32,976 bases of DNA. Source: Bacilli bacterium. Its GTDB lineage: Bacteria > Bacillota_I > Bacilli_A > RF39 > UBA660. Position 1 is the first letter of the stretch. Each line of letters opens with the position of its first letter. The notes under the pieces are model-generated. The model was not told where the DNA came from. It saw only the letters and a program-made list of their open reading frames with translations, and ran no database searches. The position numbers and the translations under genes are program-made. This document shows, one piece after another, positions 2,215 through 26,652 of this stretch. The stretch lies in the NCBI GenBank assembly GCA_017542065.1, contig JAFXXX010000009.1, positions 1-32,976 on the forward strand, given 5' to 3'.

Positions 2215-2902
2215 CATTTATGTTTTCTAGTACTAAATTTGTTCCTATTTTCTTATATTTATTATAATCTTCCCTAGTTTTAATAGTCCATATTAATATA
2301 GGTTTTTTATATTTCTTTACATATTTATTATTAACTTCAAGTTTATTAATAGATATAAAATCAGGTTTAAATGTTTTAAGAAACATACTATTTTGTAATC
2401 TATCAAATGTTTTTTTACTTTTAGTAATTAATAAACCTAAAGGAATATCTTTATTCTTAGATCTAATATATCTAAGAGTTTTTTTATTAAAACTAATAAT
2501 AGAGTATGGTTTATCATAACTAGATAATAATTCAAGTAATTTATTTTCTAAAGTTCTATTATTATTTTCATTCTTTATTTCAATCATTATTCCATATTTA
2601 TTATCTAGTTTTAAAACATCTTCAAATAGTGGAATAGTATCTACTCCAAGTAGTTTTATTTTTGATAGTTCAGAATAATTCATGTCTGATATTTTTTTAC
2701 TACTACCACCTAGTCTTTTTAATGTTTCATCATGAAAAACTACTAATTTTTCATCTTTTGTTAATCTAACATCTAATTCATATGGATGCTTTAATGTATT
2801 AGCTTTCTTAAATGATTTAATAGTATTCTCTACTATTTTTTCATTATCAAAGAATCCTCTATGCATAATTGTTATATTTGTAATAAAATCTAAATTCTTC
2901 AT
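2207..2902 (-). CDS. Glycerophosphodiester phosphodiesterase
   Basis: A 231-residue TIM-barrel enzyme that hydrolyses glycerophosphodiesters to glycerol-3-phosphate and an alcohol, in phospholipid or teichoic acid turnover. Diagnostic residues are present: MHRG with His14 and Arg15, ENT (25-27), ELDV with Glu42 and Asp44 (metal ligands), and VFHD with His57 and Asp58. Downstream, MIEIKNE and the C-terminal ILIWTIKT complete the barrel. There is no signal peptide, so it should act in the cytosol on imported or internally released substrate. Its ATG (2900-2902) overlaps the TGA of the radical SAM gene (ATGA), so it is translationally coupled to it. It is the last gene of the ttcA operon. Family is certain; substrate is not. 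Confidence 0.92.
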   Translation of the reverse strand: MKNLDFITNITIMHRGFFDNEKIVENTIKSFKKANTLKHPYELDVRLTKDEKLVVFHDETLKRLGGSSKKISDMNYSELSKIKLLGVDTIPLFEDVLKLDNKYGIMIEIKNENNNRTLENKLLELLSSYDKPYSIISFNKKTLRYIRSKNKDIPLGLLITKSKKTFDRLQNSMFLKTFKPDFISINKLEVNNKYVKKYKKPILIWTIKTREDYNKYKKIGTNLVLENINVI

Positions 2903-3879
2903 AAGTCACATCCTACATCTTTTTTATTATAATCTCCAAGTATTGCATAAGTTAAACATCTAAGTCCTCCTCTACATCTAGTAGAGTGTTCGCAGTTTTT
3001 GCATTCTTCTGGAATTGTTTTCTTTCTTAAGTCTTTTAATATCTTGTTATTCATATATATGTCATACATACTGTCTACTAAAACATTACCTACTTTTATA
3101 GGCATTCTTCTGCATGGTACTAAATCACCATTTTCCATAACAGTAAGTAAAGTATCACCGCATGTACATGCATAAGCAAAGTCATTAGTTCTAGTAAACT
3201 GAAGAGCTCTATTCATAGATAATCTTGTTTTAGATTTACCTAGTTTTACTCTTTCTTCTTTCATAATATCAAGATATTTACTAGTTTCTTCTTTAGATAA
3301 AGTTAAATCCTTATCCATAGATCCTCCAAGAGGAATATATCTATCAGACCATATATTATCTACTTTTAATCTTTTACCATATTTAACTACTTTTGGTAAT
3401 TCTTTATAGTTTAAATGATTAGCAGTAAAACTAATTGAAGTAAAGATACCTGCTTTCTTTAAAGCTTTAATACCTTTACCAATTTGTTTATATGTTCCTT
3501 TGCCTCTTATTAAATCATTTATTTTTTTACCACCTTCTAAACTTACTTGAACATAATATGGATCATATGATTTTATTTTTCTAGCTATTTCATCATTAAT
3601 TAATGTTCCATTAGTAAGAATAGAAAAACTAACTCTATTATCTTTTTTAATTAAATCTAATATCCTAAATAAATGAGGATTACAAAGAGGTTCTCCTCCT
3701 GTTATGTTTATGTGTCCATTCATACCTAATTTATCTATTAAATTAATAAATTCATAATAGATATGTTCTAACTTAGCATATGAAATACATACTGGTTTAT
3801 GGTCTTCTTGATAGCAATGTAAACATTTTAAATTACAGTTTTCAGATAGATGCCATTGAAGGATGAAGGTTCCTACCAT
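2899..3879 (-). CDS. Radical SAM/SPASM protein, candidate peptide or tail maturase
   Basis: A 326-residue cytosolic iron-sulfur enzyme. It opens with FILQWHLSENCNLKCLHCYQ, giving the radical SAM CxxxCxxC cluster at Cys15, Cys19 and Cys22. ITGGEP (SAM binding), ILTNGTLI and VQVSLEGG follow in order. The C-terminal SPASM region carries Cys238, 240, 256, 293, 296, 302, 308 and 324, enough for auxiliary clusters; the CRGGLRC stretch differs a little from the canonical CxxxC spacing. SPASM enzymes commonly modify ribosomal peptides or proteins. The start at 3877-3879 is chosen because it follows GGAGGTGGAGGT and begins the family motif; the frame is open further upstream, but only as a shifted reading of the neighbour's repeats. 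It overlaps the DUF2207 stop by 7 bases and the GDPD start by 4. The adjacent Cys/Gly tail is the obvious candidate substrate (inference). Confidence 0.9.
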   Translation of the reverse strand: MVGTFILQWHLSENCNLKCLHCYQEDHKPVCISYAKLEHIYYEFINLIDKLGMNGHINITGGEPLCNPHLFRILDLIKKDNRVSFSILTNGTLINDEIARKIKSYDPYYVQVSLEGGKKINDLIRGKGTYKQIGKGIKALKKAGIFTSISFTANHLNYKELPKVVKYGKRLKVDNIWSDRYIPLGGSMDKDLTLSKEETSKYLDIMKEERVKLGKSKTRLSMNRALQFTRTNDFAYACTCGDTLLTVMENGDLVPCRRMPIKVGNVLVDSMYDIYMNNKILKDLRKKTIPEECKNCEHSTRCRGGLRCLTYAILGDYNKKDVGCDL

Positions 3880-5825
3880 GAACCTCCACCTCCACAAGAA
3901 GAACATCCTCCTCCGCATGAAGAACATCCACCACCACAAGAAGAACATCCTGATGAACTTCCTGATGATGAAGTTGATGGAGTATAAATATAACTAGACA
4001 TAGTATCCATAGTATCAAATGGAATATATGTTGTATCTACACTCTTAATGTCTTCAAACTTCTCTATCCATTTTTTAGATATTCCAAGTACATATGTATA
4101 TGGAAGAATCTTATAGAAATAATTTGGTATTTCTTCTACTAATTCTTCTAATTTATTCTTTTCAACTGCAGTTAAAAATTTCTTAAATCCTTCTACTTCA
4201 GTTTTAATATCTTCTCCAAATCTACTTCTTCTAGTCATAATAAAGCATAAGAAGTATTGAATAAATACTGATATAAATCCTACATAATACATAAAGTATA
4301 TTTTTTGATTTAAGTCTTCTACAGTTGAATAAGCAAGTAACATATATATAGATGATAATCCTACTAATGTTAAACAAATATATCTAAGAATAAATCCTGC
4401 TTTTTCATTAATAGCCCATCTATATTCTTTATCTAATTTCTCTTCTATAGTTTTAAATATCATATAGAATGTTTTATGTTCTTTTAAATCAAATTCTTTA
4501 TCATCAGTAATTAAAGCATCTAAAACTATTTTTTGATAATCATTTAATTTGTTAACTTTTTTCTCATAAGCTGCCAATTTCTTTTCATAGTCTTTATCAT
4601 CTTTAGATGGTTTTTGACCCTTAATATAAATCTTATTCTTTTCTTCTCTTATATCAATTATTTTTTCTGCAGCTAATTCTATAATTAATGAAATAACTAA
4701 CTTTTTATTATAAACATTATTATATACATAACCTATTTCAGAAGATGATAAATCTCTTGGAGGTAAATAACTAACTACTTCTGTTTTCTTATGATAATCT
4801 TTACCAAAGATTAACCATAATATAAATATAATAAATAAATTAATTAATGAAATAACTATTAATATAAGTGAACCTGCACCATAATTATTAGATCCTGATG
4901 CAAAATAGTTTTCAGGAAGTTCTATATCTACTGTTAAGGATTTAGTAAGTTCATACGGATAATCTACAGGTCTATTTTCACTATATTTATCTCTATCAAA
5001 TGTAGCTACTAACTTATTACCTTTAATAGTATAATCAACATATTTAGTAATATCATATTTTCTATATTTATCCATGAAGAAATGAACTTCATTACCTTCA
5101 ATAGACTTTGGCATAGTAACTTCTATACTAGGATTATTAATAATAGTTCCCCAGTAATCACCATAAGCATGGAATATAAATTCATCATATCCATCATATG
5201 GATCAGATCCCATATCATAAGTATATTTAATAATATAATCTTTTTCACCAGGAGATAAAGATACACCACTATCACCTATTTTAATTCTTGGTTTATCTTT
5301 TACTGAATCAATTTTATAACTATATGATTTTCTATAAGCAATAGATGCTCTATTTTCATCATTAGTATATTCAATACCTTCATTATCATTATAGTAAACA
5401 TATGGATCATAAGTATACTCTGGCATTTCTGCTCTTAAGTTAGATAATACTGATTTTCTTCTTATTGTTTTACCATTTTTAGATGTATATTTAAACCATT
5501 CTGGAGTAAACTTATATATTCCATGATGACCATATTCTGTCCAGTTAATAGTAATATCTTCTTCAACATCTATCTTATTATCTTCTTTAACATCTAATTT
5601 AACTTTATAAGCACTAATAGTAAATCCATCAGCTGGATCTACATCTTTACCCTCATCAAACTTAATAAAACTTTTAAATACAGGTATAATCATACAGATA
5701 ATTAATATTAATGGAAGAGCAAATGCAAATATCCTCCACATAGTCTTTTTATTACCTGATTTACCTGCAAATACAGATGCAAATATAAAGAATAACATAA
5801 CAATATAAATAATAAATGTAATCAT
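3873..5825 (-). CDS. DUF2207 membrane protein with CSSCGGG-repeat tail
   Basis: A 650-residue integral membrane protein of a family with no settled function. Hydrophobic segments lie at about 2-20 and 32-51, followed by a large DUF2207 domain (about 60-318), a membrane segment (319-340), a soluble region (341-475), and two more segments (477-499, 508-530). Basic residues after segment 1 (KSGNKK) and after segment 3 (GKDYHKK) suggest the DUF2207 domain is outside and the C-terminus in the cytosol. As I recall, the family often ends in a Ser/Gly-rich tail with a terminal Ser-Trp. Here the tail has three exact CSSCGGG heptads (Cys627, 630, 634, 637, 641, 644) and ends GGSW. The only other cysteines are in membrane segments. 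The ATG at 5823-5825 follows TAGGT made by the ttcA stop. The next gene, a radical SAM/SPASM enzyme, overlaps its end. Confidence 0.88.
   Translation of the reverse strand: MITFIIYIVMLFFIFASVFAGKSGNKKTMWRIFAFALPLILIICMIIPVFKSFIKFDEGKDVDPADGFTISAYKVKLDVKEDNKIDVEEDITINWTEYGHHGIYKFTPEWFKYTSKNGKTIRRKSVLSNLRAEMPEYTYDPYVYYNDNEGIEYTNDENRASIAYRKSYSYKIDSVKDKPRIKIGDSGVSLSPGEKDYIIKYTYDMGSDPYDGYDEFIFHAYGDYWGTIINNPSIEVTMPKSIEGNEVHFFMDKYRKYDITKYVDYTIKGNKLVATFDRDKYSENRPVDYPYELTKSLTVDIELPENYFASGSNNYGAGSLILIVISLINLFIIFILWLIFGKDYHKKTEVVSYLPPRDLSSSEIGYVYNNVYNKKLVISLIIELAAEKIIDIREEKNKIYIKGQKPSKDDKDYEKKLAAYEKKVNKLNDYQKIVLDALITDDKEFDLKEHKTFYMIFKTIEEKLDKEYRWAINEKAGFILRYICLTLVGLSSIYMLLAYSTVEDLNQKIYFMYYVGFISVFIQYFLCFIMTRRSRFGEDIKTEVEGFKKFLTAVEKNKLEELVEEIPNYFYKILPYTYVLGISKKWIEKFEDIKSVDTTYIPFDTMDTMSSYIYTPSTSSSGSSSGCSSCGGGCSSCGGGCSSCGGGGSW
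3882..3893 (-). promoter_or_regulatory. Doubled ribosome site inside glycine codons, for the radical SAM gene
   Basis: The four glycine codons before the terminal Ser-Trp of the DUF2207 protein are GGA GGT GGA GGT. The first GGAGGT (3888-3893) lies 8 bases before the radical SAM ATG (3877-3879), an ideal distance; the second lies 2 bases away. The downstream gene can thus be started only from within the upstream tail. Confidence 0.8.
3885..3947 (-). repeat. Three 21-base tandem repeats encoding CSSCGGG
   Basis: Three head-to-tail units encode Cys-Ser-Ser-Cys-Gly-Gly-Gly without amino acid variation. The DNA copies differ only at third codon positions (for example TGT or TGC, TCT or TCA, GGT or GGA). 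This suggests the protein sequence is under selection rather than being a fresh slippage product. Confidence 0.9.
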
Positions 5826-7746: not shown

Positions 7747-7755
7747 ATCCTCCTA
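7747..7755 (-). promoter_or_regulatory. Stop codon of srtB within the ribosome site of the next gene
   Basis: The transcript reads TAGGAGGAT, where TAG (7753-7755) ends the sortase gene and AGGAGG is the ribosome site of the acidic protein, whose ATG follows within about 8 bases. This enforces re-initiation coupling. Confidence 0.75.
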
Positions 7756-8460
7756 GTTAACTTTATAAGCATGTACTACAAATCTTTTATTATTATTTGA
7801 ACAAGTACTAAGAGTTAATGTATTATCTTCATATTTAGGCTCATATGAATACTCTTTTATACTTCTTGCTTTTACTTTATTTTGGAATTCTGTATATGCA
7901 TTACCACAATCAAACAAAGTAGTAATATAATAATCTTCCTCTTCTATTTCATAGATAGAATAAATCTTATAAGTATGTTTACCATCTTTATCATAATAAT
8001 AAATAGTATCTGTATCACTATTTTTAAGATTATGTAATTTACCAAACATAGATCCATCTTTCATATTATGGCCATATATAACAGTATTCTTATCATCATT
8101 TATAGATATATTTCTATAATCCATGAATATCCATCCACCAACATTTTTACTCTTATCAAATGAATGACTTAAATAATAATCATTATCAGTAGTTTTAACA
8201 ACTGGATAATTAATACCTAGACTATCAATAGTTAAATAACCTATTGTATCCTTATTAATATTATATAAATAATCAAAATCTAATTCTCTTTTACCATCTA
8301 AGATTTCTTCTATTTTTATTTCATTATTTACTTTCTTACTCATCTTTTTATTCTTAATAGATCCTATACACCATCTAATAATCATACCTAAAGAAAATAT
8401 AATAATAGCTAGTAATATAATTTCAATAATAATTCTAATTATTTTCTTTAATCTTTCCAT
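7753..8460 (-). CDS. srtB: Class B sortase
   Basis: A membrane-anchored cysteine transpeptidase that joins surface proteins to the cell wall. 235 residues: one N-terminal membrane segment (about 8-33), then the sortase fold. Class B features are NKDTIGYLTIDSLGINYPVV, the YYLSHSFD block, GGWIFMDYRN, and VIYGHNM with catalytic His131. TLSTC gives catalytic Cys220 and NNKRFVVHA gives Arg226. All three catalytic residues are present, so it should be active. Its start lies inside the preceding membrane-protein gene (26-base overlap), with AAGGAG upstream. Candidate substrates are the giant protein here, although that carries only a degenerate TIQTG signal, and unseen proteins elsewhere. Confidence 0.93.
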   Translation of the reverse strand: MERLKKIIRIIIEIILLAIIIFSLGMIIRWCIGSIKNKKMSKKVNNEIKIEEILDGKRELDFDYLYNINKDTIGYLTIDSLGINYPVVKTTDNDYYLSHSFDKSKNVGGWIFMDYRNISINDDKNTVIYGHNMKDGSMFGKLHNLKNSDTDTIYYYDKDGKHTYKIYSIYEIEEEDYYITTLFDCGNAYTEFQNKVKARSIKEYSYEPKYEDNTLTLSTCSNNNKRFVVHAYKVN

Positions 8461-11394: not shown

Positions 11395-11429
11395 AAAAAA
11401 AGAGAGATTAATTATTTTCTCTCTTTTTT
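11395..11429 (-). terminator. Terminator of the giant gene, spanning its stop codon
   Basis: Arms of 12 bases (11396-11407 and 11418-11429) built of AAAAAAGAGAGA and its complement, with a 10-base loop that contains the TAA (11408-11410). A T-run follows on the transcript. Confidence 0.85.
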
Positions 11430-14400
11430 AATACTTTAATTAGTAAGAATAAAACTAATACTATTGGTATAGAAATTAACCAGTAATAATGTCTTCTAAA
11501 TCCTGTTTGAATAGTAAGTATTAATTCTGCTTCAGATTTAGCAATACTTTCAGTAGAACTACTATTATTAGTATTCTCTACTACATTACCACTTAAATTA
11601 CCATCAGCATCAATACTAAATTCTATATATCTATTATCACTAGATTCAAGTCTATATGAACCATTAGATAAGTTATTAATATATAATCTACCCTTTATAG
11701 GAACTAAATCTTTATTATTACCTTTATATCTATATTTACCAAGTTCTTCTTTAGATAGTTTTACTAGTTCACCATCTTTATATAATGTATATGTTTTATT
11801 AACATCTAACTTTTCACCATCACTCATCTCATAGATTATAACATCTATTGGATTATAAGATAGATCAAAGATGTCTACAATAATTCTTGAAATATTACCA
11901 CCTATACTATTAGTGTTTAATGTAATATTTGGACTTAAATAATATGTTGAATTGTAGTTAATGCCAAATCCATTCATATTAATAGTTACAGGTTGTGATG
12001 CAACAATTGATACTTCATCATTAACTAAATCTACAGGAGCAATTAGGTCAACATCTCTAATTGTATTACCACTAGTAGCAAAGTTAATAGCGTTTTGTAA
12101 TGCATCTGATGATGAAATAGTACCAACTGCGGCGAATGTATAGTTACCAACTTTAGCAATACCTACTGAAGTAGCACTTACTACTAGATATTCATTATGT
12201 TTTTGAATATCTCCATCAGTTACTGTTATATCTTCAGTTTCATAACCAGCTTCTACGTTAGTAACACCACCATATATAGCATTAGGTCCTGTTTGACCAA
12301 CAATTAATCCATCATAGAAGTTAATACTTTGATTTTGACTGCTTCTATAAATACCAAATGTAGATCCTTCAATATATGGAGATGATTGGCTAGGTACTCC
12401 ACCTATTTCACCTACATTAACAACACCACTATTCATCAAGTTAATACCATAACCAGATGTCGCTATAATTTCTGCAGTATCATTAACATTTAAAGTACCG
12501 TAGTTGTTGATAGCATTACCAGATGAAGAAAGAATTGAAGAATTATTGTTAATATCTATCTTTCCAGCATTACCATTTACAACGGCAACATTAGAAAATG
12601 ATATATCAGTAGAATCAAATACTATTGTTCCATCATTACCTATTGATCTATTACCACTTATTACTGTATTCTCAATATTTAAATTTGCAGAATTATATAT
12701 AGAATAAAACTCATCACTAGTAAAACATGTAGAAATACTTGAATTTTTAATTGTTGAATCTCCTCTTAAATATATAGCAGCTCCATGTTGACATCCATTA
12801 TCTTTCATTGAAATAGTTAGATTATCTATATCAGCTTGACCCATAGCAAGTCTTGTTGGATGAGAAACATCCCAACCACCATAATGAGTTATATCAATAA
12901 CAACATTTTTAATAACAAAAGTTCCTGAGTATCCTTGAAGGAATCCAGACCTAGTATTATAGAAATGAGAATTTTCAATAGTTAAACTACCATAATTATA
13001 TCCAATTATTTGAGAATAATTATCTAAATTCTTTATTTTTGCAGTACCATAATTTGCTAGTATTCTAGAAGCATCAGGATCTCCATTATCGTATGTTTTT
13101 CCATTATTAAATATACCACCATAAATATTAGTTACTGATCCTGCTAGTGCATAAATAGAAGCGTTACCAACATATGCTTCTTCACCTCTATAATAGCTTC
13201 CGCCACCATATCCACTACCTTCACCATATATCCAAGGAGCTCTTAAATCGCTTGATGTATTAGGATTGTCATCTTTATTTAAATCTATTATATTTAATAT
13301 GTTTTTATTATTAATCATATATGCATTATTATTATGTAAATATGCACCATTCTTAATATTTAAAGTTCCACTATTATCTATTAATAATGAACCAGTTGTA
13401 GAATCAACTACACCTTCATCTTTAATATTTAAAGTTGAACCAGAATTATTCATAAATATTAATACACCAAAACTTGTTGTTACATTAGCATCTATTAAAT
13501 TAATAGTTCCATTATTATCAAATGTCTTAGAACCTGAAACAGCTTGAATACTTCCAGCATTACCATTACTACTATCAATAATAGTTAATGTACCATTATT
13601 AGTAATTAATATATCATTTGATTGCTTAATAAACCAACCATTTAAATCTAATATAACATTATTATTATTATTAACTGCAGTTTCATCTGATGGTAAATTA
13701 CTATAATTTGCAATCATTTGAAGAGTATCACCATCTGTTACATCATCAAATGCATCCTTAAGATTATAATATTTCTTTTCATCTTGAGGAGTAGCTTGAG
13801 TAATATTTTGAACAATTGGTACTCTATCAAGTATTGTTGTATTGTAGTCACCATCTGTTCCATAAACAAGAGCATAACCTTCTTCAATAGTACTAAATAC
13901 ACCATTTACTGTAGCAGTCTTACCATATAAGATACCATCAAAGAATCTAAATGTTCCATTATTATTATTAATACCATAAGTAGTACCTTTTATTATTGGA
14001 TATGTTTGTGAAACAACATTATCTTCAGATAATGCTTTTCCTACTACTAAAGTAGAACTTGCTAAATTAATACCATTACCATCTTTTGAAATAACACTAC
14101 TATTATTAAATACATCAACTGTAGAAGAAGATGTTGCATTTATTGCAATACCTTTATCAGAAATAATATTTGAATTATCTACTATTAAAATACTACTTGA
14201 TCCATTAATAACATTATTATTAAATGCCTCTAAAGTAGAATCTTCAATAGTTACTGAACCAAAGTTATCAATGATTTCTCCAGTTCCTCTATTATATAAT
14301 TCAGAATCAATAATTGTTACAGAACTATTAGCTTTATTTCTAATTACGTGTGAATTCTTTTGTAGATGATCACTTGTATCAACATCAGAATATTTTATAC

Positions 14401-17400
14401 CATTATTAATCTTATCAATAATAGTATTATTAATAGTTACATCTCCACCTCTATTTTCTACAAATGAATTATAAATTTCAAAATTAGAATTATCAAAAGT
14501 TACAGAACCAGTATTAATTAAATTATGATTAGAACCATATACCCAACCATAACGATTATGTGTAATTTGAACTATATAGTTCATAGTTAAGTTATCAAAT
14601 GATAATGTGCCACTATTTTCACCAATTAATGATTGGTTAGCAGTAATATCTTTAATTATTGCAGTACCAGCATTATATATTAATGCACCTTTATTTATAT
14701 ATGACGAATTAGGATTTTGCCAAGTATCATGGTTAAGTAGTTTTCCATTTATACCATCATATTCACCACCAGTAACATTTAATATACCTGTAGTATTATT
14801 TAAGAATACTGTAGAGAAATAATTAACTCCTGGTCCTTCAATAACATAAGAACCATTAGTTACAAATCTACCATTAGTTACAGTGACATTACCATCATTA
14901 TTAATAATAGATCCAGATTTAGTAAGTCTATTATCAATCATGTCATAATATTTAGTAAATGTTCCACCACTAATATTTAATGTAGCATTTTCATTGTTCT
15001 TAATTACTTCAGTTTCATTTGGAGCTTGTTCTGATGCAAATTTACCACCAGAAATACTTAATGTTCCATTATTAATAAATATATTACCTAATGTTGAATC
15101 AATTAAACCTTTTGAATTATCACTATCAATAACATTTAATGTTCCATTATTAGTAAATAATGTTTCATTATTCTTATCTACTACTTTTCCATTTACATCA
15201 AATGTAATGCTTAATCCATTTGGAATTGTAATTTCAGTTTCAAGGTTACCAACAGTTATATCTCTATATACTTTAATTACATCCAAATTATTAACTAAAT
15301 TATTTGTTAAAGCATTATTAAATTCATCAATTGAATTATACATAATGTCTTGAGTTACATTAATAAACATTGGTTCATTTGTTAAATATTTAGTTTCTAT
15401 ATCTTTTGTTTCATCATATTCTCTTTTTATAGAATATCCAGTTTCTATATTTTCAATAGTAACATTATATGATTTTTGACCAGATATTATACCATCATAG
15501 AAATTAACTTTTAATGATGGATTAGATGTATAAATACCATATGTTTTACCAGTAATTATAGGTCTAGTATTTTCTTTAGTATCTGCGAAATTATCATGAA
15601 CACCAAGATTAATTACACCTGAACCGCTATTATTAATAGCAACATCATTAGTAACATTAATAATTCCACCTTCTATATTTGTAATACCTGTTGCTTCTCT
15701 ATTAACTTTTGTATTAATAGTTCCACCATGCATTATGAATGAATATAAATCTTCAGTACTATCAATAGATTTACCAGTACTTCTTACATTAAATGTATTA
15801 CTATATGTACCACTATCAATAATTAATAAACCTTCACTGTTAATAGTACCTCCTGAGAATGTATTATTTTCAAGAGTTAATACTCCATAGTTAGGAATAA
15901 TAAATATATCATCTGTTAAATTCTTAATAGTTGCAGTTCCGTAGTTTTCAATTAAATACATACCAAAATTATTACGAGCATTTTCATGTCTTAAATCTGT
16001 ATTATCTAATATCGCAGTACCTTGTTCATTATTTATAACTAAAGAAGCACTATTATTACTTATAAGTGGTGTATCTTTAATAGTTAATAATCCATAGTTA
16101 TTAAACATTCTATTATTTCCATATGCTCTAAATTCACTATTAGTAATAGTCATTGTAGCAGTTTCATCATTATAAATACCATATTTATTTGATTCAGAAT
16201 GATTACCAATTTCAATTTTTACATCATTCATGACTGCTATACCTTTATTTTCAATTGTATAAACAACATACTTAGAATTATCAATAAAAATATTATTAAT
16301 ATTAATAGTTCCATCATTATAGATGTATTTATCACCCATAAATATATTTTTATTTTTAGTATTCTCACTATCTTTTATAGTTAAATTACCATGATTTTCA
16401 TATAAATAATCACTAACATAAGATTTAACAGTATGACCTTTATAGTCAATAGTAATTTGTTTATCACTAGGAATTACTATTTTATTTTGTTGTTCTATAT
16501 TAACTAATAATTCAATAGTATCTCCGTTATTAGATGCATCCAATGCATTTTGAATTGTAGTATATTTTGCATTACCTATTTTACAAACAAATTCTTCCTC
16601 TCCTGAAGGAACAGGTCTAGAATCACTATTAGCAACTAATATCATTTTTTCATTAGAATTACTATCTAAAGAATTATATATATCATAGTTTTCTGGAACC
16701 ATATAAATATCAGCATCAACTGCAGTTTTTGCATTAATAGTTCCATCATAATAATATAATTTTCCAGGACCAGTTATACCATAATCAGTAGCGTTTATAC
16801 TTGGAGTATTCTTAATAGTATCTACAGTATCAGATGATAATAATGTAATCTTAGCATAACCTGCTCCTGTATTACCAATTATATTACCTGTACCATAATA
16901 ACTTGGCATTTCTTCTGTACCATTTCTTAATACTACATCAGTTAAGGTACTTGATGCATATGATGAACCACCAAGCCCATCAGTACCACCATAGTAACCT
17001 CCTCCACCTCGTCCATAGGCATAACCTAATCTAGAAGTTGAAGGGTCAATATTAAAGCCACCATAGCTTGTTGTACTATTAGCACCTCCGCCGCCACCTC
17101 CGGCAACGAGAATTCTTTGTTCATAAGAAGCGTTACTTCTTATAGACATTGTTACACCATTATCATAATTCCATATATTATCTTCATCAGATAAAGATAT
17201 ATCAGTAGCACCTCCACCAGAGCCATTTGCCCAATCATTAATTCTAGAAGTTTGATATCCACCACCATTATATGAACCATATCTAGCAGAAATACTTGCT
17301 ATTTGTCCTCCTGAAGAGCCAACTCCACCTACATGGATATATAATTTATCTCCAGCATGAAGAGTTATTGTTCCTGAAGCATAAGCTCCAAGTCCTCCTC

Positions 17401-20400
17401 TAAAGTATGTTGAACAGGTACCCATATAGCATGAATAGTTATGAGAATTACCACCTTCAGCGCCCCAAGTTTCTAGCTTATATGTTCCATCACTTGGTGC
17501 TGTAAATACTTGTCCTTCACCTGTATAACTATAGGTATATTCGTTTCCTAATGGGTTATTATCAATTGTTCCAAGAACAAGAGTCGCTTCATTATAAATA
17601 GCTGTTCCAAATTTAGAATCGATAGTAGTATCACCAAGTATTTGTAAAACACCATAAACACTTGGAAGAGAACCATCGTAATTATCATAACCAGTATTTG
17701 TACTATAAATAGCCCTAGTTTTATATCCACTAACATTATTTACTGTAACATTATTTAAAGTTAAATAATCAGAATTGCTAATTAAATCTACATCAGTTGT
17801 GGTTCCAGTATAATTAATTACTGAATTATCTATTAACATTTTACCTCTAAGTTGTCCTCCGCCAGCGGCACGACCCGATCTATTAAGAATTGCATTGGTT
17901 TTATTAGATATAATAGAATCTCTAATAATAGAATCTCCTCTATTATCAAAATAGCTAAAACTAGAATTATTAATATTTATAATACCAGAATAGTTATTTA
18001 TAGAAGTTAAATTAGAATTATTAACTGTTACTATTCTTGGTGATATTTCAGAATACAAAGTACTATTTAAATTTGAACTATTAATAGTCAATTTACTTGC
18101 CCTAGCTTGACCAGCAGCAAGTACTGAATAATTAGTAGATTTTAAATTAGAATTTTGAATGATAGTATCACCTGATGTAAATTCTCTAAATCCTGTTCCA
18201 GAACCTAAAACAGTAATATTATCAAATGTAACATTTGAAATTGCTTCGTTCTTAATACCATAAACATTAGATGAAGCAGTATTTATTGTTAAATCACTTA
18301 TTAATGAATCAGCACTTCTATTTAAAAGCCCTATAGAACTACTTCCATTTGCATTAATAGTTCCAATTGAAGGTAAAATGTCTCCAGTAGATTCATTAAA
18401 TATAGCTGTTGCTCCACTGTTATTAGCATTAATAACACCATGTTCACCAATAATTAAATTACCTCTATTAACAATAGCAATTTTATTGTTAACATCAACA
18501 TTTATATTTGCAGTATTAACAGCTAAATAAGCATACTCTTCATTAAGAATTGCATTATTTATTGTAGAAGTAATACTACCATATACATCTTCTGAAACTG
18601 TATCATTATAACTAAGATCAGAATCAGGTTCAATACTATTAATATCATCAGAATTAATGTCAATTTCACTTAGATAATCCGGAAAATTAGGTCTTTTTTT
18701 AACACTATAAGTTTTCTCAAGGTTATTTTTTAATTCTGCAAAATATTCTTTTTCTTCATCAGTTAAAGAAATTTGAATTCTAGCATGTCCATCATCTTTA
18801 TTACCAATTGTAGTATCATCGCCATCATATGAAGGCATTTCTTCATTACCTGCTTTCATAATAGTGTTTGTAAACGATTTTCCAGAATAATGGACAGAAC
18901 ATAATGAATCATTTATTGCAGATTCTGCAGTACACTCAACTTCATTTGAATCTAATCTTGGTGATAAACTATCTTTAGAAATAATAGCTATAGAGCCAAG
19001 ATGTCCAGATATATAACTAGAGCCACCACCGGCAGCATCGATATGGTGAGAACCAGCTCCACCGTAGTAGCCACCACCTCCACCAGTAGATAATCCAGAG
19101 TTTCCATGTGATCCACCTATACCAAACGAACCACTCGGTAAGGCTTCTCTTGTATTAATTCCTCCACTAAGTTGTGTAGCACCTCCACCTGGGCCATAGC
19201 CGTTATTAGTAGCACCATTTTGTCCAACTAATCCTCCGGCGTTTCCACCACCAGATCCATTGAATCCGCCACCACCTCCGGCAGCAACCATTATTCTTGA
19301 TTTTAATCCAAGTGGTGAATTAACTAACATATCTGATTGAGATGGAACAGTTTCAAAGTATCTAACATCAGTAGCTCCTCCACCAGTACCATATGTTCTT
19401 CCACAACAACTTTGGCCTTCAGTGTCTCCACCACCATTATAACCACCATCAATGTGTTCAGAAGTGCTTGCCCTAGTAGATCCACCTTTACTACCTACAT
19501 AGAAATATAATATATCTCCTTGTGTTAGATTAACTATACCTGATGTATAACCACCATTACCAAAATTATCATTATTATTGCCACCTTTTGCTCCCCATAA
19601 TTCAATTTTATAATTACCTGTATATGGAACAATAAATTCTTCAAAACCACCAGTATAATCATAATCTTTTTGTTCTAGAATAGTATCTATTACATATTCT
19701 TCACTAGGTTCACATCCAGCACAAAGGCCAACATATTCTTCATATTCAACCAAATCTGCAAAATATTGTGTTTTAGCTTCTTCAAATAATCTTGCTTGTT
19801 CAGTGTGATACTCAATATTTCTTGAATGTCTATCATTATAATCGGAATCCATAATAGTCATTTTTCCATTATTCTTAATAACATAATCATCTCTATTAGA
19901 TGTTAAAGTAAATCCATTTAAGTCTAATATTACTTCTTTTTCTTCTGGCACAATTAGTGTTGAATCTAAAGTAATATTCTTTAACATTTCAATTGTATCT
20001 ACAGTTTCATTAAATACTGGCTTTTCAAAGTAGTAATTAGGATTTCTATAAATACTACTATCTGTTATTGAATAAGCATCTTCAATAGTATCAAAATATC
20101 TTATTTCTTTTATAGTAAATGAATCAGCATATCCATTACGAGTATTATCCTTAGAATATATAAAGTGAACGTAATTTACTTGATTCTTTGTTAATTTTAC
20201 ATATGCCTCTTGATTATCAAGGTCACCACTAGTCTTTAAATAAATTCCATTATTATCAGTTGGATAATCACTAGAATAAGTACGTTGAATAATACCAAAA
20301 TCTTTGTTTGCTTCACTACTAATTCTAGTATTAATATATAAATATTTATCTTCATTTACATTTGTTAAATCTACTGTAATATATGAATGAGCTATACTAT

Positions 20401-23400
20401 TACTAACTTCTTTATTGTTGCTAAGATATATATTACGTTGTACTTTAGCATTATTACCATCTAGATTTAGTATTAATCCTTCAGTAGATGAATTACTAAC
20501 AATTTCTTCTTCAGTTAATACTCTATCATATATTTGAACTTTATATATGCTACCATTTAAATATGAATTTTGAGGAGAAGATCCACCAGGATTTGCTCCA
20601 AGCATTAATACAGTATTATTACGTGGATGAGTCATTTTGGTTCCTTCATATTTGTTTTGTTCTACACCATCCACATATAAAATTGCTGTTCCATCTTTAT
20701 ATGTAACTGTAACATCGTAAACTCTACCGTACTCAATTGAATCATTTGCATATATATATCTATATGAACCATCTATATATATTTCTGCACAAATTTTATT
20801 GTTATATGTTATAATTCCAAGCCCACCATCTTCATAGTTTGCCATAATGACACTGTTATTATTATTTGAACTAAATTTAGTATGCCAAGTAAACTCATCA
20901 TAATTCATTTCACCTAAATTAACATAATCGTTGCCATCAAAATCGTATTTACCATTTTCAGCATCTAAAGATGCTCCATATACAATACCATTTTGCCCAG
21001 CCAAAGCCTTCCATATAGTAACATCATAATCTACACTTTCAAAATAATGATTATCAGTATCATTATGATATAAAGTAAGATCAGGAATTATATTATTTTC
21101 AGATAATGTCTTATATATAGCTACAGAATTAACTGTAAATGTATTAGTTCCCACTACATTATTCTTATGATAATATCCAAAATGAACATAATTAATCTTT
21201 CCAGAAACTAATGGAATAATTGTTATTTTTTCGTAGGATTCACCAGAATCTAAAAGATATCTTCCAGTAGTATTATTATATTCCTGGAATCCTTGGTATT
21301 CAGAAAGATATACGTAACCATAATCAACATTACCCCTACTACTAATTGAAGTATTTATTATTAAATTTACTTGATCAGTTTCTCCTCTTAAATCAAATAC
21401 AGCATATGAATGTGAATAACTATAATCATCATCTTGATTAGAACTATTATATTTTCCATCATCATCCTGAACAAATGGATAATTACTTGAATCATGGTAT
21501 AAAGTAAGATTTGATGTTGTCTCTCTTTCACCAAGTATAGTGAAATTACTTACTTTAAACATTTCGTAGGCATTTATATCACTATATGCCTTAACAAAGC
21601 CAAAATATATATAATATACTTTACCTTTTTCTAAATAATAAATTTTAGTTCTATTGATACTATTACCTGTAATTCTAAATATTTCTGTTCCATTATCAGA
21701 TAAGCTTTCACTTACAGAAACATACCCGTAAGAATTAGCACCAGAAGTATCAGCAAATGCATCAAACATTATTATTAAATCTTCTGATTCTTCAGTTAAA
21801 TCTAATTTAATATATGATTTTGCTGTAGTATTTGCAGTAGTACTGTTACCACTATATATTTCATTATTAACAGCATCATATACAAAACCATAATCAGCAC
21901 ATTGTTTAATTTTGGAAAGAATCCTTGTATTCTCAGTAGTCATTGTTCCAGTTCTAGCAGAATCAAACGCATTATCACCAGTATTAACTTTTAACTTAGT
22001 ATAATATGTACTCTTTATTCTTGCTTCTGGATCATCTACAACACTTAATGTACCAATGTGTTTATCATCTTCTCCAGTTATAACAACGTTATATGAATAT
22101 TGAGTTATTGGATCTTCACCATTATCTATTAAAGCAATTGTATCTGATACAAGTTTTCCATCAAAGAAATAGAATGTATCATTTTGCTCTATAGCAGTTT
22201 CATAGCCTTCAATTATAGGTCTATCAAGTTCTGGATAAATAAATGTTTCACTAGCCTCAGATGAACCATCACCTAAAACAAATTTCTTATTATTTATTAC
22301 TGCTTTACCAGTTGTATTAGTAACTTTACCAATACTTTCATGTTCACCATTAACTAATCTAGGATTTCTATCTACTATATGTAGTTCACCATTATTAATA
22401 AATGTAGCTTCTTCAGAACTTGTAATTATTCTTCCATCTAAATCTATAGTAATATTTTGATTTTGTCCAATAATAACACTTTCATTTACTACAGGATATA
22501 CTGGATTAGTTTGAATAGTACATTGAACTTCAGCACAGTAATCAACTGCAGCTTGTATACTATCAAACATTAAGAATTCTTTACCATCTTCTATAACAAA
22601 TTCTTTAGTATCAGGATCAACTGTATACCAAAGCATATTATTTTTACCTACTACTCTAGCAACATATGGATGAGTAGTTACTTCAACTTCTTTTTCTGAT
22701 ACATTACCAACATAGTCTACAGCGACTATCTTAACAATATATTCAGTATTATCTTGAACACCATAGAATGTATGATCATAATTTTCAGCATGATCTTTAA
22801 TACCATCAAATACTTCTGAAGTATAAGTTAATGTATCATCAAATTCTAAAGCAGTTTTTTCTTTAACATATAAAGTAAATTGTTTAACACCAGAATCTGC
22901 ATCTTGAGCAGTACCACTAACTGACATATTAAATGACATAGCTCCAGTTGCAGGGTTATTAATTGTTGGTGCAATACTATCAACATTTATTACATCTTCT
23001 TCAGTATTTGCACTATAGATATTACTCTTCTTAGCAAACGCTGTAATAGTTGTATTCTCATATACTTTAAATGGTTCAGTATATAATACTGGACTATTAT
23101 CACCTATCTTATAATATAATTCATAGCCTGTAGCATCTAATAGATTTTCATTATTAGTTATAGTAACTAATACACCACATTCACTATTACTTGAATTTGA
23201 ACATACCCAAGTTTTATTAGTAGTTTCATCTAACATTGGATTTAATGTAATTACTGGAGTTAATACTTCTTCATAAACTGCATATAAGTTTTTATTAGCA
23301 GTTATTAAAGTACTAAAGTTATACTCAGTAGTTCCATCTTCTGACCAATATAAGAATATATTATGTGCCTTTGTTGGATCAGTTACTGGTTTAGTAGCAG

Positions 23401-26400
23401 TTTCTTTCCAATCCACTGTTTCTGTAGCAAATTGAACTGATTCATTATAGTAATTAACTGTATAATGATTTATTTCATAATTTGCTTTTAAATGTTTATC
23501 TCCTGTACTACCAGTTGGTATAGAAGTAATAATACTACTTCCCATTGTGTAATGAGTAAATGTATATCCTTCTTTTTCTGGAGCATTAAATGTTATCTCA
23601 TCACTTTCAATTGTATATCTATCAGGATTTGTTACCCCTTGAGGTAATGCTCCACCATCATAATCATAAGTAATATTATAAACAATTGGAGTATAGTTAG
23701 CTAAGAAACTTCTATGACCAATTGAACCAGTTGGAATAACAACTAATGTATTTTCATCACCAGTTAAATCAGTTCCAGACCAACCTTTAAATGTATATCC
23801 AACTTTAGATGGATTATTTAAAGTTATTGGAGCACTATCAATAGAGTATCTATCAGGATTTGTTTTACCCTCTTCATAAGTACCACCATTAAGTGTATAT
23901 GTTAATGAGTAATCAAGTTTTCTAAAGTTTGCTGTATATTCTCTATTTCCAGTTGAACCTGTTGGAATAACTACTGATATAGATTTATCAGTAATATCTG
24001 TCCCAGACCAGCCTAAGAATTCATATCCAGTTCTTATTGGATTAGCTAATGTTATTGAAGCAGATTCTACATTATAACCAGTTGGGTTATTTAATGCAGT
24101 TTCTTCTTCTGGAGTTAATCCATGATAATGGATTTCATATGGAATAACTTCATAAGTTGCTTCATATGCTCTATCTCCAGATGAACCTTGTGGTATAGTT
24201 ACTGTTTCAGTAGCTACTGTTAAACCTGTTCCTGTCCATCCAATGAATGTATATCCGTTCTTACTTGGATTATTTAATGTAAAAGTTTCTGTTTGTCTTG
24301 TATATGTACTTGGATTTGTTTTTCCTTCTGAATATGCACCACCATTTAAATTATAAGTGATAGCATAATCATCAGCATTTTCTCTCCATACTGCCGTATA
24401 AGTTCTATCTCCTATACTCCCTTTAGGAATAGTAACAGTTAATGAAACATTTCCATTACCATCATCCCATCCAAGGAAATCTTGATAATTATTACCTTGA
24501 CCATCTACTCTAGTATTTGGATTACTTAAAGTAAATGTTTCTGTTTCAACATTATACTCAGTTTTGTTTCTTAAGAAATCTCTTTCTTCATCAGTTATAT
24601 TTTGATAATTAATTCTATAATTAATAATTTCATATATAGCTGTTAAAGTAGCATCATCGTTATCAAATAAATAAGTTAAATTATTATAAGTTCCGCCACC
24701 ATCATGATTATATCTTAAGAAGTTATAACCTCTTCTTTCAGATTCACTAAGAATCTTCAATGTTCCAAAGTTTTCAGTAAATGTTACTAATGAAGCATTA
24801 CTTTCATAAGTACCACCATTTGGATCAATAGTTAAAGTAGATCTATTAATTTCATAATGTGCAGTATAAATTCTCTTTCCAGTTGAACCAACAGGTACTG
24901 TTACTGATTCAGTAGTATCAGTTAAACCAGTTCCTGTCCAACCAACAAATGTAAATCCTTCTTTAGTTGGATTATTAAGTGTAAATGAATCTCTAACTGT
25001 ATATGTTGTTGGATTAGTAGGATTTACAGATCCACCATCTAATTCATATTCGATGTCATAATTGTTAATAGTATAAGAAGTATATAATTCAGTATCAGAA
25101 ACAATTTCTTCACCATCATAACAAGTATTATTAAGTTTAAAACATTTAAATGTGTATCCATTATATTCAGGATGATCAACTAAATCTACAGAATCTCCTT
25201 CATTTACTTCCTTAGTTTCTAATATAGTTTGTACATCATTATTAGGATTTACATCAATAAATGTTACATTAAATTTGTTATTATCAATCTTTCCATATAA
25301 AGCAATATCTTTAGTAACAGTCTTATTAAAATCATATTTATTAGTATAATTTCTATCTGTATACCATCCAGCAAAGTTTTCAATATGTGGATCTATATTT
25401 TCTATCTTTTCAGAATTAATAACATATTCTTCTTTATAAATACTTCCATTTAAATAATAAACTATGTATTTATAATCATCTCCAGCTGCTATTGCTTTAT
25501 TGATATAACTTTTAGCTTCATCTGTTTTTGTAATATCAAGAACTAGCTTTGCACTAGTTTTTTCAAATGCTTCTAATTCAGTTCCTTCTAACGGAGTATA
25601 GAATAAATAATTGTCTTCTTTTGTCCATCCTGGATTTTTACTTTCATCAAATGATAAACCATCTGGAAGTACATCTTTTAGAACTGCTATAGTTCCTCTT
25701 ACTTCACCTTCATTTTTAATTGCAATGTTATAGTAAATAGAACCTTCAATTGTTTTAGCATTTCTAATTACTCTAATTACTCTAGTTTCATCATCATAAT
25801 CAAATGTTTCTTTTTTACCATTAACTACTAAATAAAGTTTACTAATAGTTTTTTTGATATTTAAAGTAAATGGTTCAACTTCTTTGATAACTACATTTAA
25901 TACTTTTCTATTTTGATCAGTAGTTTCATCAGTATATCTAACTAGTTTATATTTAGTTTCTGCTAGTTTAACTTCATAGTTTTCTAAATCACCTAAACTA
26001 AATGTATATTTACCATCTTCTTTAGTATAAGTTCTTTTTACTTCATTACCGTTTTTAGTAAGAACAAGTTCAATACCACTAAATAATGTTCCAGTTTCAT
26101 CAGTTACTTTACCTTCAACTGATTTACCGGTAATAGTTACTGGATCAACATTAATTTTTGAATTAGCAGTATCTTCACTATTTATGTTAATTTTTGGATT
26201 AATAGTTACACCATATGGAGCATTTTCTACAATAACAGTAATTGTTATATTACTCTTTGTAGTAGTAATAGTTATTTCTTTACCATTATTTGTTACTACT
26301 CCTTCTTTGTTTCCTTTAAATCTAGCATACTTATTTTCTTCATTAGTTAAAGTAGCTGTAACAATAGCAGTATCACCAGAATCTTTATTAACTCTGATTT

Positions 26401-26623: not shown

Positions 26624-26652
26624 ACTATTCACCATCCATTATACTTATAATA

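Follow-up and report, generated by a model that had tools for sequence, protein, structure and literature searches.

The window analysed here is a stretch of 32,976 nucleotides from a Bacilli bacterium of the gut (GenBank assembly GCA_017542065.1, contig JAFXXX010000009.1, positions 1 to 32,976). On its minus strand it contains a gene for a DUF2207 polytopic membrane protein of 650 amino acids (aa; 3873..5825) and, directly after it, a gene for a radical SAM/SPASM enzyme of 326 aa (2899..3879). The membrane protein ends in a 24-aa tail, CSSCGGGCSSCGGGCSSCGGGGSW (3876..3947, minus strand), and we consider it very likely that the two genes encode an enzyme and its substrate, the enzyme modifying the tail cysteines, probably into short thioether loops. 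The tail consists of three exact CSSCGGG heptads (3927-3947, 3906-3926 and 3885-3905, minus strand) and then GSW, as had been described for the last 24 residues of this 650-residue protein in an earlier interpretation made from the letters alone (the sequence-only reading). The 7-base overlap with a radical SAM/SPASM gene, also described there, was confirmed; the ATG of the enzyme and the TAG stop of DUF2207 overlap in ATGGTAG (3873..3879, minus strand), coupling both genes, and an overlap of the same 7 bp was found in 17 measured loci, in one of which (L066) the start was read by analogy. A longer open reading frame listed from position 3948 was rejected, as it is merely tail DNA in another frame.

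The membrane protein was assigned to the DUF2207 family by PF09972 (57.6 bits) and PF20990 (102 bits), both above the cut-off, and the family-model scan gave no match to TIGR04222 in it. Its AlphaFold2 model has a pLDDT of 81.6 with residues 618-644 disordered, and comparison with solved structures returned low-coverage matches only (M1-peptidase-like beta domains and ribophorin-type chains, TM ~0.2), which were not used. Hydropathy and the positive-inside rule predict an external N-domain and a cytosolic tail, for the window protein as well as for two single-pass relatives (L163 and L170), which supports the cytosolic location supposed earlier. A second DUF2207 gene in the same genome has a Cys-free tail with the end FSGGGGFSGGGGGGGGGSSW and adjoins a LemA-like gene and no radical SAM gene. 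In most DUF2207 proteins (L173-L272 and L292-L341) the C-terminus is a Gly/Ser tail whose last residue is aromatic or basic (GSW, SSW, GRF or GGVR).

The enzyme was recognised as a radical SAM protein by PF04055 (89 bits), by its fold and by the CX3CX2C motif (C15, C19 and C22; 3814..3837, minus strand), which is invariant in 17 orthologs. The cysteines of SPASM auxiliary clusters are present as well, with PF13186 above its cut-off (35 bits) and the variant spacing CX2CX5CxGGxxC; this region (2908..3168, minus strand) contains C238...GX4C256, C293X2C296X5C302-x-GG-x-x-C308 and C324, and is invariant in the 17-ortholog alignment. The protein lacks an N-terminal RRE, the leader-binding domain of enzymes that act on ribosomally synthesized and post-translationally modified peptides (RiPPs); its sequence starts directly with the radical SAM core. 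The structures nearest to its AlphaFold2 model (pLDDT 83.5) in Foldseek were SkfB, anSME, SuiB and PqqE, and CteB (5wgg) and SkfB (6efn) led the sequence-profile search; the nearest folds are thus those of peptide- or protein-modifying SPASM/twitch enzymes.

The association of tail and enzyme was monitored in 386 genomes of the source organism's bacterial family. The pattern CxxCGGGCxxC was present in 15 of them, belonging to 12 genera, and its reversed control in none; each of the DUF2207 tails found by the pattern (15/15) was followed directly by the radical SAM gene. The sole pattern match outside DUF2207 tails was a phage-like, Cys/Gly-rich protein of 669 aa in genome G265 (L092, 193-2199), which is unrelated to DUF2207. 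When the same genomes were searched with the enzyme profile, 17 orthologs scored above 500 bits, including two that the tail pattern had missed (in G234 and G397), and all 17 adjoin a Cys-tailed DUF2207. A base-rate sample of 100 DUF2207 loci was drawn from an E-value-ordered list, with known Cys-tailed ones excluded except for one positive control, and yielded 96 complete C-termini, one gene having been fetched twice. The tail was Cys-free in 94 of these, with no enzyme within the fetched stretch, and the two Cys tails (the control and G234) both had the enzyme. The sequence-only reading had proposed that a SPASM gene should lie beside Cys tails and be absent beside Cys-free ones, and had named Cys tails lacking a nearby SPASM gene, or a SPASM family occurring mainly without DUF2207, as observations that would speak against it. 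The proposed distribution was the one observed, and no Cys tail without the enzyme was found among the 15 pattern-found tails and the two of the sample. Outside the family, neither a Cys-Gly tail nor the enzyme was found at the DUF2207_C C-termini checked across the phylum, and CGGGGSW followed by a stop was found in 0 of 391 other genomes in the phylum sample. In a tree of DUF2207 C-terminal regions, the Cys-tailed clade contains a nested group without tails (G258, G182 and possibly G211, whose gene ends near the contig end), and the enzyme profile gave no match in these three genomes. Tail and enzyme are lost together in this nested subclade, in what may be a single event seen in genomes about 90% complete.

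The tail itself is under selection as a protein sequence. The identical 24-aa tail is encoded at 29 loci by 27 distinct DNA sequences, and no Cys, Ser or Gly codon in it is free of synonymous variation, indicating that selection has kept the protein sequence and that the heptads are no recent DNA repeat; a chance or slippage origin was ruled out by this synonymous diversity. Cys occupies the 7th position from the C-terminus in 55 of 55 tails and the 10th in 54 of 55, which defines CxxCGGGGSW as the minimal unit, and the heptads upstream of it are variable. Across tails the number of repeats ranges from 1 to 3 and that of cysteines from 1 to 8.

A 17-sequence alignment of the enzyme was then scanned against 84,980 species and the best 80 loci were taken. 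Among these, 77 adjoin a membrane protein with a Cys/Ser/Gly tail, in Firmicutes, Bacteroidota and Proteobacteria. The closer relatives, 58 loci at 47-99% identity that include Lachnospiraceae isolates (Pseudobutyrivibrio), all adjoin a Cys-tailed DUF2207, so that the enzyme family does not occur mainly apart from DUF2207; in one of them (L100) the membrane gene is frameshifted and its end still reads GCSSCGGGGSW. The other 22 of the best 80 are less similar (37-44% identity); 19 of these lie beside a membrane protein whose Cys-containing tail differs, with CSSCSSCSSC...GGGGAD, CSSGCSSG...GGGGAD, GGCGGCGGD and similar sequences or, in L171, a single Cys. The enzyme gene comes first in seven loci, with the linkage kept. 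The neighbours recurring at the 58 DUF2207 loci were DUF2207 and the radical SAM gene (58/58 each) and LemA (25/58), every other being found at no more than six; the absence of any further conserved gene beside the pair ruled out an overlooked small precursor peptide. Cultured carriers of the system include Pseudobutyrivibrio ruminis DSM 9787 and Clostridium ljungdahlii ERI-2.

Of the 80 enzymes, 79 are complete, and each of these carries the SPASM signature CX2CX5CxGGxxC, which was present in no outgroup radical SAM protein checked; in the enzyme tree the members formed one clade (100/97). Its subclades correspond to TIGR04222-type partners (99/99), CSSCSSC tails (98/93), CSSGC tails (100/100) and CGGGGSW tails (98/91), that is, the tail type matches the enzyme subclade. 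The partners are DUF2207 proteins, either full-length or with the N-domain only and one membrane helix (L163, L170); TIGR04222 proteins, three above the cut-off (L158, L160, L164) and four aligned with those (L154, L166, L168, L169); and a protein of TPM, a separate family (L171). When the upstream genes of L154-L169 were compared with window positions 3999-5825 (alignments A4 and A5), TIGR04222 matched DUF2207_C with an hhalign probability of 93.4 (E 2.5e-7, 213 columns, tails removed), and PF20990 gave sub-threshold matches (E 2e-5 to 4e-5). TIGR04222 (near_uncomplex) and DUF2207_C (PF20990) are thus probably remote homologs as judged from these alignments, which, if true, would bring two Gly-rich-tailed families together. 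As the scaffolds differ, the partners share no feature other than the tail.

We propose that the DUF2207 protein would sit in the membrane with its large N-domain facing outward and its C-terminal tail lying disordered in the cytosol, and that in this lineage the generic Ser/Gly DUF2207 tail ending in GGGGSW bears cysteines at fixed places. What the co-translated enzyme, lacking an RRE, recognises may be the tail, the cytosolic domain next to it, or both, and it would modify the tail cysteines; the likeliest products would be short thioether loops from Cys sulfur to a nearby Ser or Gly, with the product staying attached to the membrane protein. The tail is the most likely substrate because it is predicted to be cytosolic and flexible, has Cys only where the enzyme occurs and is the sole feature common to unlike partners. 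That the enzyme acts on it is highly likely, the catalysis as such being something we infer. The thioether product is suggested by analogy with streptosactin, in which a SPASM enzyme joins Cys to Ser and Gly through i,i+3 bonds (PMC8172795), a geometry that would fit CGGG within each heptad. A stress or redox role may be considered as a weak lead, in that it would fit the Streptococcus mutans DUF2207 mutant, which is sensitive to acid, peroxide and methyl viologen (PMC10457818).

Several observations weigh against this proposal. Most cysteines of the CSSCSSC tails have no Gly or Ser at i+3, making a uniform thioether geometry less than obvious; these tails fit Cys-Ser or Cys-Gly i,i+3 bonds less well, which leaves room for other Cys chemistry. 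Locus L171 has a single tail Cys, no Cys tail lies near the enzyme in L162 or on the short contig of L151, and L172 is ambiguous. The Cys-tailed DUF2207s are mostly one clade, so that the counts do not represent independent events. We give a smaller but appreciable chance to the enzyme modifying the tail by a different reaction, such as formylglycine formation (Cys or Ser oxidation, as by anaerobic sulfatase maturases), Cys-Cys or C-C cross-links, methylene or thio insertion, or epimerisation. SPASM enzymes catalyse many reactions, the best structural matches include anSMEcpe, and the CSSCSSC tails suit Cys-Cys bonds or oxidation as well as Cys-Ser bonds. Against these reactions, there is no CxPxR-type sulfatase context, the number and spacing of cysteines vary as expected for Cys-based rings, and the top profile matches, CteB (5wgg) and SkfB (6efn), are thioether-type maturases.

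It is unlikely that the tail is instead a metal- or Fe-S-binding, redox or docking element serving the enzyme, with the true substrate elsewhere, for example in another DUF2207 domain or a small molecule. CxxC units can bind metals, substrate cysteines can ligate SPASM auxiliary clusters, and the enzyme of L162 lacks a tail nearby; yet the tail type follows the enzyme subclade across differing scaffolds, a repeat number of 1-3 and a Cys number of 1-8 would be unusual for a fixed metal site, and no other neighbour is conserved. A coincidental linkage of functionally unrelated genes, handed down within an operon from a single ancestor, would agree with Cys-tailed DUF2207s being largely one clade and is nevertheless highly improbable, given that tail and enzyme were lost together, that the linkage spans several phyla and scaffolds, and that the overlap is conserved and reversals of gene order keep the genes linked.

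The closest published analogue of the proposed tail modification is found in TIGR04222 polytopic membrane proteins, which have a disordered Ser/Gly/Cys C-terminal tail and lie beside an MNIO (DUF692) enzyme proposed to modify the tail Cys (PMC12452194). Both arrangements join a membrane protein bearing a Cys/Ser/Gly tail to an adjacent metalloenzyme, and some TIGR04222 proteins (L158, L160, L164) pair with the present radical SAM clade; the enzyme here is radical SAM/SPASM and not MNIO, and the TIGR04222 tail is predicted there to be periplasmic, whereas the DUF2207 tail here is predicted to be cytosolic. That paper discusses no radical SAM partner, the term radical SAM being mentioned twice, both times in its reference list. 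The relatives listed in the sequence-only reading, namely repeat-tail, sactipeptide and ranthipeptide systems, need amending: this analogue was missed, and ACGX, though nearest to the enzyme, is not its family. The rSAM_ACGX family (TIGR04340) is its best NCBIfam match, has a Cys-repeat target and likewise no long N-terminal extension, but the enzyme scores 157 bits, far below the cut-off of 400. ACGX targets are small peptides, none of which lies beside the window enzyme with its DUF2207 partner, and the ACGX SPASM domain lacks the CxGGxxC signature, the ACGX enzyme falling outside the clade; the assignment was rejected on score, target type and signature. Genuine ACGX peptide and radical SAM pairs do occur in the same bacterial family (L288, L289 and L290, the last with an expanded repeat number).

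The maturases of sactipeptides and ranthipeptides (SkfB, CteB, GggB, PapB) share with the enzyme the SPASM/twitch radical SAM fold and Cys-containing targets. They differ in that no RRE, leader, conserved protease or exporter is present here and that a large membrane protein, with no known release of its tail, provides the target; membership in these classes was rejected from gene content, there being no leader recognised by an RRE and no conserved neighbouring gene that might supply one. The Cys-Xaa-Xaa-Xaa repeat targets of radical SAM enzymes (TIGR04117) also have repeated Cys in the C-terminal region, and the L163 tail matches their model weakly; this match of 16 bits is far below the cut-off of 50 bits, the model being short (98 positions). 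No paper linking a radical SAM enzyme to DUF2207 or TIGR04222, naming the tail sequence or otherwise relevant on ACGX with radical SAM was found in a search whose coverage mostly excluded subscription papers and preprints; wider queries brought up general RiPP articles only, among them a sactipeptide review. Tail modification on a DUF2207-type protein is apparently undescribed before. The finding reaches further than the sequence-only reading had seen, and it would extend a known theme, the modification of Cys repeats by radical SAM enzymes, to an unusual class of substrate.

Elsewhere in the window, the minus strand encodes a predicted surface protein of 5075 aa with Listeria-Bacteroides-type repeats, beta-helix-like stretches and Gly-rich segments (11408-26635), its gene making up about 1.7% of the 0.9-Mb assembly, and a sortase-like protein with a TLSTCS motif read by eye (7753-8460). 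At L287 (963-3530), two different radical SAM genes accompany a small Cys-rich peptide in what is probably a RiPP cluster.

On balance we lean, with some reserve, towards one radical SAM/SPASM clade, not described before and with the signature CX2CX5CxGGxxC, forming a general cross-phylum system that would introduce Cys cross-links into cytosolic tails of DUF2207, TIGR04222 and TPM envelope proteins. These tails would be permanently attached rather than secreted as peptides, and MNIO would be an unrelated alternative on the same type of scaffold. Since cultured carriers exist, the system is directly testable. If true, the enzyme clade would be defined by a simple signature, with its substrate already indicated by the genome; RiPP-type radical chemistry would reach beyond short secreted peptides to the tails of envelope proteins that occur widely, and this would provide the first handle on the function of the Gly-rich tails of DUF2207, LemA and TPM proteins.

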